A stretch of DNA of 64,000 bases from Mytilus galloprovincialis (taxonomy: Eukaryota; Mollusca; Bivalvia; Mytilida; Mytilidae). This document shows positions 905-63,085 of the stretch, piece after piece. Location of the stretch: NCBI RefSeq assembly GCF_965363235.1, contig NC_134850.1, forward strand, positions 31,460,102 to 31,524,101. Direction: 5' to 3'. The notes under the pieces were generated by a model. It saw only the letters and a program-made list of their open reading frames with translations, did no database searches and was not told where the DNA came from. Positions within the stretch are counted from its first letter, which is position 1; the number at the start of each line of letters is the position of its first letter. Both the position numbers and the translations under genes were made by a program.

Positions 905-3900
905 GTTACGTCATACCACCACATTATTGTTGGCTGTTTGTTGCCATATTGTAGACAATTAGTTACCATATTTCTGGCCGTTTATAACCAGATTGTTGGC
1001 CGTTTGTAAACACATTATTGGCTGTTCGTTTCCATACCGTTGGCTGTTTGTTACTTCAATGTTGTTGGATGTTTATTACTTCATTATTGGGTATGTGTTA
1101 TCTGGTTGTTTGTTAGTACATTGCTGGTTGTTTGTTACGTATACGACGTTCTTATCGGTAAGTTACCACATTGTTGGCTGTTTTTTAAAATACATTGTTG
1201 ACTGTTTGTTACCACATTGTTGACTGTGTAATCCCATTGTTGATTGTGTGTTACCACATTGTTGATTGTGTGTTACCACATTGTTGGCTTTTGTAACTAC
1301 ATCATTGACTGTTTTACCCCATTGTTGGTTGTGTGTTACCATATCGTTGACTGTTTTACCCATTGTTGGTTGTGCTACCACATTGGTGACTGTTTGTTAC
1401 CAGATTGTTGACTTTTTTACCCCATTGTTGGTTGTGTTACCATATTGTTGACTGTTTGTTACCACATTGTTGACTGTTTTACCCCATTGTTGGTTGTTTG
1501 TTAACACATTGTTGACTGTTTTACCCCATTGTTGGTTGTGTGTTACCACATTGGGGACTGTTTGTTACCACATTGTTGACTGTTTTACCCCATTGTTGGT
1601 TGTGTTACCATATTGTTGACTGTTTGTTACTAAATTGTTGATTGTGTTACCCCATTGTTGGTTGTTTGTTACCACATTGTTGACTATTTTACCGTATTGT
1701 TGGTTGTGTGTTACCACATTGTTGACTGTTTGTTACCACATTGTTGACTGTTTTACCCCACTGTTGGTTGTGTGTTACCACATTGGTGACTGTTTGTTAC
1801 CACATTGTTGACCGTTTTACCCCATTGTTGGTTGTGTTACCATATTGTTGACTGTTTGTTACCACATTTTTGACTGTGTTACCCCATTGTTGTTTTTTTT
1901 TACCACATTGTTGACTGTTTTACCCCATTGTTGGTTGTGTGTTACCACATTGTTGACTGTTTGTTACCACATTGTTGACTGTGTTACCCCATTGTTGGTT
2001 GTTTGTTACCACATTGTTGACTGTTTTACCCCATTGTTGGTTGTGTGTTACCACATTGTTGGCTGTTTGTTACCACATTGTTGATTGTTTGTTACCACAT
2101 TGTTGATTGTTTTTTACCACATTGTTGACTGTTTGTTACCACATTGTTGATTGTTTGTTACCACATTGCTGACTTTTTTGCCACACTGTTGGTTGTGTGT
2201 TACCACATTGTTGGCTGTTTGTTACCACATTGTTGATTGTTTGTTACCACATTGTTGATTGTGTGTTACCACATTGTTGACTGTTTGTTACCACATTGTT
2301 GACTGTGTTACCCCATTGTTGGTTGTTTGTTACCACATTGTTGACTGTTTTACCCCATTGTTGGTTGTGTGTTACCACATTGTTGACTGTTTGTTACCAC
2401 ATTGTTGGCTGTTTGTTACCACATTGTTGATTGTTTGTTACCACATTGTTGACTGTGTTACCACATTGTTGGCTGTTTGTTACCACATTGTTGATTGTTT
2501 GTTACCACATTGTTGATTGTTTGTTACCACATTGTTGACTGTTTGTTACCACATTGTTGACTGTGTTACCCCATTGTTGGTTGTTTGTTACCACATTGTT
2601 GACTGTTTTACCCCATTGTTGGTTGTGTGTTACCACATTGTTGACTGTTTGTTACCCCATTGTTGGTTGTGTGTTACCACATTGTTTGCTGTTTGTTACC
2701 ACATTGTTGATTGTTTGTTACCACATTGTTGATTGTTTGTTACCACATTGTTGACTGTTTGTTACCACATTGTTGATTGTTTGTTACCACATTGCTGACT
2801 TTTTTGCCACACTGTTGGTTGTGTGTTACCACATTGTTGGCTGTTTGTTACCACATTGTTGATTGTTTGTTACCACATTGTTGATTGTTTGTTACCACAT
2901 TGTTGACTGTTTGTTACCACATTGTTGACTGTGTTACCCATTGTTGGTTGTTTGTTACCACATTGTTGACTGTTTTACCCCATTGTTGGTTGTGTGTTAC
3001 CACATTGTTGACTGTTTGTTACCACATTGTTGGCTGTTTGTTACCACATTGTTGTTTGTTACCACATTGTTGACTGTGTTACCCCATTGTTGGTTGTTTG
3101 TTACCACATTGTTGACTGTTTTACCCCATTGTTGGTTGTGTGTTACCACATTGTTGGCTGTTTGTTACCACATTGTTGATTGTTTGTTACCACATTGTTG
3201 ATTGTTTGTTACCACATTGTTGACTGTTTGTTACCACATTGTTGATTGTTTGTTACCACATTGCTGACTTTTTTGCCACACTGTTGGGTGTGTGTTACCA
3301 CATTGTTGGCTGTTTGTTACCACATTGTTGATTGTTTGTTACCACATTGTTGATTGTGTGTTACCACATTGTTGACTGTTTGTTACCACATTGTTGACTG
3401 TGTTACCCCATTGTTGGTTGTTTGTTACCACATTGTTGACTGTTTTACCCCATTGTTGGTTGTGTGTTACCACATTGTTGACTGTTTGTTACCACATTGT
3501 TGGCTGTTTGTTACCACATTGTTGATTGTTTGTTACCACATTGCTGACTTTTTTGCCACACTGTTGGTTGTTTGTTGGCAGGTTCTATTTTGGACTTTGT
3601 TTTATCGGCAAAAATAAGCAAAAATTAAAACCCTATGATAACCCGCTATACGGTAGTTTTTTTTTTGTTACCACATTGTTTGTTGTTCGTTTACACATTG
3701 CTGGTAATTTGTTACCATATAGATTGCTGCTTGTTACCACATTGTTGGTTGTTTGTAACTACATCATTGTTGACTGTTTAACCCAATTGTTTGTTGTTCG
3801 TTACACATTGCTGGCCGTTTGTTACCATATAGATTTCTGATTGTTACCACATTGTTGGTTGTTTGTAACTACATCATTGTTGACTGTTTAACCCAATTGT

Positions 3901-59520: not shown

Positions 59521-60730
59521 GAATTGTCAACCAATCAGAATTAATGTGCGATCATGCATGACAATGTTATGTTTTACAATCGTCTCCATTTTTAAATGTC
59601 TTCGGACTTTTCGGATTTTATCGGCTTGGTTTTTAACAGTGTTTGTTAACATTTGAATCTGATTTCAATTTCGAAAATGCTTTAACTTTGAAACTTTTAT
59701 TATAAATGCGTAATTTATTTACATAAACATGAAACTAATGCGCAAACACGCTTCTTTGCAAGTAGATTTCACATCATCTAGAGAACACCCGAACATATAA
59801 ACTTTTAAGCGGGAAATTTTCAAACCAGATGTCAACCATTTCTTGGGGTTATAAAATTTGCAAAAGAAATAGAAATAGTGGTCGATAGTTCTTTTAAATG
59901 TTAAAACTTATTTTTCCTTATTTAATTTGGTTTTACTCGTACGATTTTTTTCAATAGCAGCATTTACTACAGTGACATATAATACATATTATCCTTTTTT
60001 TTCAATATATAAGTATTTTTCTTTGTGTCATATTTATTCTTGTGAATCTTTTTCAACATTTCCACTAATTTTATGCGTTCATAATTGCTCTTAACAGAAT
60101 TGCATGGGTATTATGAGTCTCTCATGTAAGATCATATAAATCAAACATGATTATAAATAATCATTCCGGTCGAGACTATGGAACGCCATGACTGCCTTAT
60201 GTTAATAATCAACATTATATGCAGTGGTCACACCATTATATGAAGTGGTCATAACATTATATGAAGTGCTCATAACATTATATGCAGTGCTCACAACATT
60301 GTATGCAGTGCTCACAGCATTATGTACAGTGCTCACAACATTATATGCAGTGCTCACAACTTTATATGAAGTGCTCACAATATTATACGCAGTGGTCAAA
60401 ACATTATATGCAGTGGTCGCAACATTATACGTTTTTTGTTGATGAAGGTGATGATCAGTGATGGTGATGATGATGTTTGATGGTGATGATAATGTTTGAT
60501 GGTGAATGATGATGTTGGATGTATGTGATGGTGGTGGCTCAGATTCGGTAAACCTCGGGTTTTATCAGCGGAAATTACCGAATCCATAATTGGTAATGCA
60601 CCCAGCAAACAAATTGAAACCAAGTTATCAAAAACATGTCATTATTAAGGCAGTATACATTAATATTTAAAACTTATTGAAATAAGGAAATTAAGAAGTA
60701 TGATCTATTTACCACAAGTTTATTCCACAC

Positions 60731-60896
60731 CAGTGGCGGATCCAGGGGGGGGGGGGGGGGTTCCGGGGGTTGGAACCCCCCTTTTTTTTTGCCGATCAAT
60801 GCATTTGAATGGGAGCATATAGTTGGAACCCCACCCCCCCCCCCTTTTACTCTGGGTTGGGAACTCCCCCTTTTAAAATGGCTGGATCCGCCACTG
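60731..60896. mobile_element. hAT-like MITE with CAGTGGCGGATCC ends
   Basis: CAGTGGCGGATCCAG at the left and CTGGATCCGCCACTG at the right form perfect 15-bp TIRs typical of hAT MITEs in many animals. CACAC repeats directly outside both ends. Long G, C and T runs lie inside. A partial relative is at 28516-28612. Confidence 0.85.
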
Positions 60897-61554
60897 CACA
60901 CCAGGGTATTTTAATGATCAGTTTCATCATATTCACAACATATATTAACCGTGCAGACTGATGAACAAACGTAGCAAACGTTTTCATTCACATCCACGAT
61001 CTTAGTTTTCATAAGAGATGATAACTATAAATGAAAATGTTAAAATGGGTCTTGAAAAGGTATTTTTTCTAATGAAAGTTTATATCTCTATATAAGGCTG
61101 CTTCTTATATTTATAAGACAAACTGTTTGACGTGCCAAAAGCTGGCAAAAAATGGTACACTTAATACTTATTCATGTAAAAATGCAAAATTCTGAAAATC
61201 GATGCCATATAATGACTCTATCATGACATATATACGCAACATTAATATGGCACTTAGGTCTTATAAAAAACTGAATATTTTATTTAAACTGAGTACTGAC
61301 TATAAAGTCGCGATCCCACCTTGCTGAAGTTCTTCAGTAGGAAATGAACTCGAGGCATATATATCGTACAAAGTTTCCTTCGATATTTCATCAACTAAAA
61401 TCTTTATTTTTAACTAATTATGCCATGCGTATAATTTCTTACGACGAACAGAACTAGTTCATTCATTTCAGGAATCTAATGTACAGTGGTTGTCGTTTGT
61501 TTATGTAATTTATACGTGTTTCGCGTTTATCGTTTTTTTTTTTTTTTTTTTTGT

Positions 61555-61718
61555 ATAGATTAGACCGTTGGTTTCCCCGTTTGAATGGTTTTACACAAGT
61601 AATTTTGGGGCCCTTTATAGCTTGTTGTTCGGTCTTAAAGGCAGTACATTGACCTATAATGGTTTACTTGTGACTTGGATGGAGAGTTGTCTCATTGGCA
61701 CTCATACCACATCTTCCT
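61555..61718 (-). repeat. GTGGTATGATTGCC repeat, reverse copy inside the foldback spacer
   Basis: Reads TAGACCGTTGGTTTCCCCGT ... CCCTTTATAGCTTGTTGTTC ... GAGTTGTCTCATTGGCACTC ... ATACCACATCTTCC. Confidence 0.75.
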
Positions 61719-61841
61719 TTAGTTTCATCTTTTCCTCAGAATGAATTTCCAATAAATTAATAAAATTATGGCTGTCCAATTGCAGACAAACGCAGGCGTT
61801 ATTTTTTCTGATATAGTTTTCAATCGAATTGCCTTGATAAC

Positions 61842-61880
61842 ATCAAGGAATTGTATATTTGAAATATACAATTCCTTGAT
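61842..61880. repeat. 39-bp perfect palindrome
   Basis: ATCAAGGAATTGTATATTT, one G, then its exact inverse. It lies inside the spacer of the foldback element. Confidence 0.9.
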
Positions 61881-62326
61881 AACATGACTTCAACAACTGT
61901 TTCTATTTGTTTGCGGTGCACTATCAATTATGACTGTATTCGGTAATTTCCGATAAAAAAAAAATCCGAAGTTTACCGAATGAACCACCACCATCACATA
62001 CATCAATCATCGTCATCAACATCACTGATCATCACCTTCATCAACAAAAAAGTATAATGTTGTGATCACTTCATGTAATGTTGTGAGCACTTCATATAAT
62101 GTTGTGAGCACTTCATATAATGTTGTGAGCACTTCATATAATGTTGTGAGTACTTCATATAATATTTGGACCACTGCGTATAATGTTGTAAGCACTTCAA
62201 ATAATGTCGTGAGCACTGCATATAATGTTGTGAGCATTGCATATAATGGTGTGACAACTGCATACAATGGTGTGAGCACAGCATATAATGCTGATTATTA
62301 ACATAAGGCAGTCATTGCGTTCCATA

Positions 62327-63085
62327 GAGAAGCATCCTGGTGTCTCATAACTAGGCTATTATTGTATATACATGTATAGATTAAATTATATCGGATAAAA
62401 TTGATTTGCTTTACGCCGCGTGATGGGAATTTTATTTTATGACTGAATTATTTAGAAAACTTTAAAATATCATATACCAAAAGATTAAACAATGAATTAT
62501 ATTTCTACGAACCGTGTCAAACGCCTTTCTAGTTTCTCATACCAATGAAAGCAAAATATTAATGCGGTATGAATAGTTTTTAAGTTATCTGATATATATG
62601 GTCTATAGGAAAATATTTGGTTGTGAAATGCTATGATTTGGGATGTGGAAAATCAATTTCTTCAAAAGAAGGGTCCTCTTGGACAATGGAATTAAGACAC
62701 TTAATTGAAAGCAGGGGTGATAGATGAGTACAATAGTTGACGTCTTGGCTAATTTGTGAAATTTGTTTATGAACCGCGGATTATGCGCTCAATTAATTTC
62801 TATTTTTTTCAGTGCTATTCATGTTGACTCTTCTTGTACACTCTATTTTCATTGTGTCACAGAATTGTGAATTTTGTGTATTATATGTCGACCATACTAT
62901 CCTAAACTTTGCTGAAAGGTAAGAATCTAGGAAGCAAATAATGTTTATGAAATTGAAATGTGAGAGAGAGAGAGATATTGTCCTGTTTTGTATTTGAAGT
63001 GCAAACGTGTAAAGATCCGTAATCTTATCACTGTTCGCTATAGTATCAAAAAAGTTAATATGCTTAGTATAGATATCATATATAT
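62327..63085. other. No gene seen
   Basis: AT-rich DNA, with a short GA run at 62960-62975. No exon or known repeat recognised. Confidence 0.45.

Follow-up and report, generated by a model that had tools for sequence, protein, structure and literature searches.

A mussel foldback element with arms of 21-bp tandem repeats, very likely derived from an IS3EU/GingerRoot-type DNA transposon

Foldback elements are a structural class, and the enzymes which mobilise them are often unknown. One such element resides in the window analysed in this work, a stretch of 64,000 nucleotides of the mussel Mytilus galloprovincialis, and raises the question of which transposon it comes from, and what its repetitive arms are for. 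The element is very likely a non-autonomous, internally deleted derivative of an IS3EU/GingerRoot-type DNA transposon, in which the terminal inverted repeats have expanded into arms of the foldback type. The placement is based on the TATGG..CCATA ends, the 6-bp target site duplications (TSDs), and the presence of a transposase gene behind identical arms. IS3EU/GingerRoot transposons have TA..TA termini and usually 6-bp TSDs (available part of PMC10045372), and fungal IS3EU elements TAYGG..CCRTA ends and 6-bp TSDs (available part of PMC12730594).

The element spans 2,150 bp between the ends TATGGAAC and GTTCCATA (Table 1). The initial annotation had correctly set its end, but placed the start at 60173, and the actual one lies four bases inside. 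An inverted-repeat search detected two pairs. The outer, ungapped one (60176-60427 / 62076-62327) has arms of 252 nt, 86% complementary and separated by 1,648 nt; the inner one (60432-60482 / 62001-62051) has arms of 51 nt, 94% complementary. TRF assigned 10.5 repeat copies to the left and 11.3 to the right 21-bp array, and a TGATGGTGATGATGATGTT tract to 60459-60521. Both analyses bear out the layered organisation previously described, as the two arms carry, in the same inverted sequence, a 33-bp outer block, a 21-bp array, a GATGAT tract and an inner block. The unit counts do differ between arms, as annotated, and cutting into 21-mers sets the difference at one full unit. The inverted match ends at 60176/62327 and neither arm continues past these points, in line with the view that the arms are not part of a larger inverted duplication. 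Aligned over 266 columns, the arms share 85.7% identity, whereas the left part of the element reaches 95.2% against a related copy, L044, over 524 bp. The divergence between the arms is thus older than that between the two copies, and the arms drifted separately in the window copy, as had been proposed. The proposal does not extend to the whole family, as the arms of the C11 element described below are 99.6% identical over 539 columns. Both strands of the arrays had also been reported as open. This is true, since four of the six frames of the consensus unit lack stops, but trivial: open frames follow from the unit length, 21 being equal to 3 x 7, and the source arrays lie upstream of an ATG. 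Folded as a single strand, the left arm is no more stable than shuffled sequences (z +1.21; 89 of 100 shuffles give an equally good or better fold). The flanks of the window copy, CGAGAC and GAGAAG, form no 6-bp target duplication. Elsewhere in the window, positions 1162-3576 host a 2.4-kb array made of about 113 copies of a 22-bp unit, GTTACCACATTGTTGACTGTTT.

Table 1. Features of the foldback element, in window coordinates
Feature	Position	Strand	Basis or remark
Whole element, non-autonomous	60177..62326	.	End sequences, inverted arms
Left outer block (terminal inverted repeat tip)	60177..60209	+	Arm match, genome-wide end pattern
Left 21-bp array, 10 full units, consensus ACATTATATGCAGTGCTCACA	60210..60429	+	TRF, 21-mer cutting
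Left GATGAT tract	60432..60537	+	TRF, inner inverted pair; C11 counterpart upstream of the ATG of the SAM-like exon
Left inner block (TTCGGTAAAC...)	60540..60612	+	Limits by eye
Nested hAT-type MITE, CAGTGGCGGATCC ends, 8-bp duplication CACACCAG	60734..60896	.	Judged against uninterrupted L044
Dispersed repeat, ~240 bp, recurring in the flank of the C11 element	~61480..61720	.	Limits and recurrence by eye
Decayed remnant, SAM-like first exon of the transposase gene	61717..61842	-	tblastn, DNA alignment
Small perfect hairpin, flanked by repeated CCTTGATAACAT	61843..61885 (about)	.	Missing from L044
Right inner block	61900..61985	-	Limits by eye
Right GATGAT tract	61986..62051	-	Inner inverted pair
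Right 21-bp array, 11 full units	62053..62290	-	TRF, 21-mer cutting
Right outer block	62294..62326	-	Arm match

The element is one of many. Genome-wide searches covered 1.385 Gb in 331 contigs. A 30-base end pattern, with up to 3 mismatches allowed, was found at 467 places (229 on the plus and 238 on the minus strand), and its reversed control at none. Family ends read TATGG..CCATA. The pairing of ends was analysed on the complete list of 87 places carrying the exact 35-mer end: 36 of the 38 adjacent pairs no more than 30 kb apart face inward, with spans of 3.04-27.4 kb, one is ++ and one --. Both the 467 ends, set against the empty control, and the inward pairing exclude chance. Target duplications were searched in 20 copies, which are 19 of the 20 fetched end pairs and the window copy, L044 being excluded for an indel at the left end. 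Exact 6-bp duplications flank 12 copies, and four more (L040, L047, L051, L057) have one mismatch; none was found in L041, L043, L048 and the window copy. A duplication of 3 bp, the first guess, was discarded in favour of the 6 bp found. The host sequence of L051 is a reverse-transcriptase gene present in repeated copies. When joined, the flanks of L051 match at least 40 places, and 22 of those listed do so over all 240 bases, at 93-99%. One locus, L083, is the empty site, in which GAAAAA is unfilled, and thus confirms one insertion. The initial annotation, which envisaged a dispersed family sharing the arm ends, and proposed to look in aligned copies for target duplications and a transposase-bearing member, is supported on all these points, the last by the C11 element.

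Two subfamilies were recognised from the interiors of the fetched copies, A with 10 members of ~3.7 kb and B with 8 of ~4.6 kb; L043 and L058 stand apart. The longest interior block is 98.25% identical in A and 92.7% in B (7 copies each, 21 pairs), and no long frame outside the arrays was seen in the interiors of either. Of the 17 fetched copies with measurable arms, 13 show a length difference between arms that is an exact multiple of 21 bp; three copies gave no array end on one side. Non-autonomous copies retain 4 to 30 units per arm.

A candidate source of the family was identified on C11. At the C1 end L023, five units are followed by an ATG frame resembling a SAM domain (Pfam SAM_1 E 2.8e-4, 21.6 bits, cut-off 23). 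A genome search with this frame detected 23 places, one on C11; Pfam rva_4 (PF24764) matches at least 154 places, one of which is 23 kb from the C11 SAM exon, on the opposite strand. The two C11 matches led to predict a plus-strand end left of 24131500, and exact 35-mer ends were indeed found at C11:24130456(+) and C11:24157894(-). The ends are 27,439 bp apart, and the sequence read covers this 27.4-kb element except for about 20 kb of its interior. The 1.3 kb read from the left end (L081) include the arm with 24 full units, the GATGAT tract, the inner block, and the SAM-like exon with its gtgagt donor, and helix-turn-helix (HTH) and integrase exons are found 2.8 kb further inside. The left arm is directly upstream of a gene with SAM-like, HTH and rva_4 integrase-core exons, and its array precedes the ATG. 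The rva_4 profile matches the C11 exon with E 1.5e-75, and the HTH_23 match has E 1.3e-3; the NCBIfam models of the IS481 (E 2.4e-12) and IS3 (E 1.7e-8) families match below their cut-offs. For the transposase itself, the SAM assignment, made on sequence similarity, is weak: SAM_1 matches the C11 exon at E 0.071, below cut-off, and an unrelated MptE-like Pfam match is better, at 0.0057; it is supported by the SAM of CNK2, at E 0.003, and by similarity to that of the second gene described next (37.5% over 40 aa). The first catalytic Asp of the C11 transposase is replaced by Ala, and the next-best genome match to the exon is 59% identical (147 scored of 361 candidates). The flanks of the C11 element, GAAAAT and AGATAT, form no target duplication. 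As neither the window copy nor the C11 element has one, either may be a rearranged copy.

The right arm of the C11 element leads into another SAM-like exon, read in the opposite direction and ending TCAG|GTAAAT. SAM-like exons inside both arms, in opposite directions, denote two convergent genes, each starting just inside an arm. Calling F1 the family of the window and C11 elements, and F2 and F3 two sister families, the match of the second gene to SAM_1 scores 35 bits in F3 (cut-off 23, E 1.8e-8), a good assignment as judged from sequence, and falls just under the cut-off, at 18.5-22.2 bits, in F1 and F2. At C1:99082167-99086286 (L022-L024, L059-L062) family ends, a short array and the SAM exon of the second gene are repeated head-to-tail as tandem units of about 1.03 kb. 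Here, the end of a transposon has become a small satellite.

Traces of the transposase gene survive in the window. The translated SAM-like exon of C11 matches 61842-61717 at 40% identity over 43 aa in tblastn searches (E 1.7e-4 when all loci are searched together with the window, E 4e-6 in a set of 7 sequences, in which L044 gives a better match, 44% over 54 aa). At the DNA level, the right arm runs on into a stretch which is 72.7% identical, over 600 columns, to the C11 left arm and exon, and the alignment reaches ~61720. No comparable match was obtained with A and B arms (best E 0.78), and the SAM of the second gene has no match in either the window copy or L044. The right arm of the window element thus corresponds to the transposase-gene side. 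The hAT MITE, dispersed repeat and perfect hairpin annotated in the spacer are all there. Being absent from L044, the hairpin was inserted after the split from this copy; template switching, rather than a transposon, may have produced it. The window copy is an internally deleted element, further broken by the hAT-type MITE and the hairpin.

The sister families extend the association. The F3 element at C7:55003935-55022858 is flanked by an exact TSD, CTTATG. The first 13 bases are identical to those of F1 ends, but the unit, TTTTCTATTATAAGATGGTGG, is different. In the left arm, 19.1 copies of the 21-bp unit, upstream of the ATG as in the C11 element, are followed by a 390-aa open frame with SAM-like, HTH and DDE parts, D-56-D-32-E spacing, and an rva_4 match of E 5.5e-60; SAM is not among the Pfam matches listed for the protein. 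The frame shifts near the C-terminal end. In a second F3 copy, at C2, the ends are 3,105 bp apart, and 15.1 units precede the transposase gene found in C7, which has here a stop in the SAM-like part. An endonuclease-reverse transcriptase gene was at first considered as a component of the C7 element. It was dismissed as a nested non-LTR retrotransposon, being 91-98% identical to 16 copies among the best matches listed. Given the Asp to Ala change in C11, the frameshift in C7 and the stop in C2, no intact transposase source was seen among these three copies. In this individual the family may lie dormant, or depend for its movement on an enzyme encoded outside this assembly.

F2 repeats are more degenerate (TRF 4.3 copies, 68% matches). 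At some places, both arms of F2 copies, such as that at C10:52450142-52456360, contain a SAM frame of 60 aa that is open. Analysis of 9 copies revealed no sign of constraint on this frame (pN/pS 0.93 versus the consensus, 1.05 pairwise): among 25 distinct changes 4 are synonymous, versus ~5 predicted from the fraction of sites. Genome-wide, 11 of the 72 rva_4 matches at least 38% identical to the C11 exon have an F2/F3-type end within 20 kb, versus 0.19 expected. All 16 of these ends face inward, and 7 upstream ends are 753-950 bp from the match. Among 35 more distant rva_4 matches, one has an F2/F3-type end, at 13 kb. The 107 matches come from 150 listed, the other 43 adding only second fragments of genes already counted. 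At C10, an end pair encloses a transposase within ~3.35 kb. The units do not appear to be homologous: F1 and F3 share at best 9 of 21 positions, a value reached by 4,918 of 5,000 shuffles, whilst the 12 of 21 shared by F1 and F2 are attained in 731 of 5,000. Only the period is thus shared between families. Other rva_4 frames, mostly of 436 aa, form nine convergent pairs ~13.0-13.7 kb apart (C1:105984419/105997985 and eight more places), which suggests that a further family has transposase genes in both arms. Neither a SAM-like frame nor a 21-bp array was found in 2.4 kb read for this lineage at C10.

Other origins have been considered for the window element. The possibility that it is a segmental inverted duplication, or a hairpin derived from a satellite, itself immobile, deserves hardly any credit. 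It would fit the absence of a target duplication at the window copy, and the tandem units formed by similar ends at C1:99.08 Mb, but at the family level dispersed ends, inward pairing, 6-bp duplications and the empty site contradict this notion. Polinton/Maverick elements, which are self-synthesising, generate 6-bp duplications and can be ~20 kb long. A relationship to them could account for the duplications, the integrase core and the length of the 27.4-kb and 18.9-kb elements. On the sequence read it is very improbable, as ends pair round the transposase at a distance of only 3,105 bp at C2 and ~3.35 kb at C10, the nested retrotransposon accounts for part of the C7 length, and the best prokaryotic matches are IS481 and IS3. 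The initial annotation likened the arms to those of fly FB elements. The arms are of the foldback type, and a true Foldback of the mussel, FB/Galileo-like and belonging to the P or Mutator superfamily, would likewise have a dispensable interior between long arms composed of short tandem repeats. Yet, kinship with the FB family was not upheld, and is highly unlikely. FB elements of Drosophila produce 9-bp, Galileo 7-bp and sea-urchin TU elements 8-bp duplications, versus the 6 bp found here; ends are of the IS3EU type, and the transposase behind the window family's own arms is not a P-type THAP enzyme, but an rva_4 protein of the IS481/IS3 type.

The role of the arrays leaves more room for doubt. 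The element may be an IS3EU-type derivative in which arrays are passive, and simply represent the slippage-prone promoter or leader sequence of the two convergent genes, taking no part in the binding of transposase. Both C11 arms lie upstream of an ATG exon, the unit sequence is not common to families, and binding is a prediction. Still, we regard this as a minority option, since 21-bp arrays occur in all three families examined, though weakly in F2, non-autonomous copies retain their units with no coding need, and the Galileo transposase binds sites in the tandem repeats of the terminal inverted repeats (TIRs). In Galileo binding is carried out by the THAP domain, and multiple sites have been proposed to give specificity (available part of PMC3688188). 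By analogy, the 21-bp arrays of the mussel element probably are ends bound by the parent's transposase. According to this reading, the window element would have been moved in trans by cut-and-paste. The HTH of the transposase would read the 21-bp units, which, set about two helical turns apart, would lie on one DNA face; SAM-like domains could promote the assembly of many transposase molecules on the array, and slippage or unequal exchange would add or remove whole units. In a bolder and rather doubtful extension, the array would serve as an assembly track with helical phasing. The SAM-like/HTH transposase, perhaps as a co-polymer with the second gene's SAM protein, would coat units two turns apart, and read the ends by filament length rather than by one strong site; selection would fix the period, and the unit sequence would drift between families. 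Two families sharing the end tips and differing in the units, along with a third, degenerate one, make recognition by spacing or by sequence testable.

No description of this mussel family was found in a limited literature search, restricted to listings, as the initial annotation had assumed. The mussel element shares with IS3EU/GingerRoot transposons TA..TA termini, 6-bp TSDs at the family level, and a DDE core related to IS3/IS481. It differs in the foldback arms made of 21-bp arrays, and in the SAM-like N-terminal domain of the transposase. As in fungal IS3EU elements, the transposase is opposite in orientation to a second gene, but the latter encodes an alpha-kinase in fungi (available part of PMC12730594), and starts with a SAM domain in the mussel. 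The available parts of PMC10045372 and PMC12730594 mention neither SAM nor sterile alpha domains, and foldback arms are unmentioned for IS3EU in the literature searched, as far as the accessible text goes. A foldback family is now tied to an IS3EU-type transposase. In oyster, the satellites CgiSat35 and CgiSat47 are annotated as DNA/IS3EU, and CgiSat43 has an unannotated 21-bp monomer (table of PMC8268682); these are a possible parallel to the mussel arrays. KolobokP, composite-like transposons of bivalves found also in Mytilus, similarly have long repeats at both ends (available part of PMC9587614), but these are direct terminal repeats, and the transposase is of the Kolobok type. Galileo, a Drosophila element of the P superfamily, has long, internally repetitive TIRs resembling Foldback (PMC3688188, same part), and differs in the THAP transposase, in having few long direct repeats in place of 21-bp arrays, and in ends and TSD. 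Drosophila FB and sea-urchin TU elements likewise have inverted arms of short tandem repeats, but of other sequence, with other TSD length and mobilising transposase. Their occurrence on an IS3EU-type transposon makes foldback arms appear as structures which arise convergently in unrelated superfamilies.
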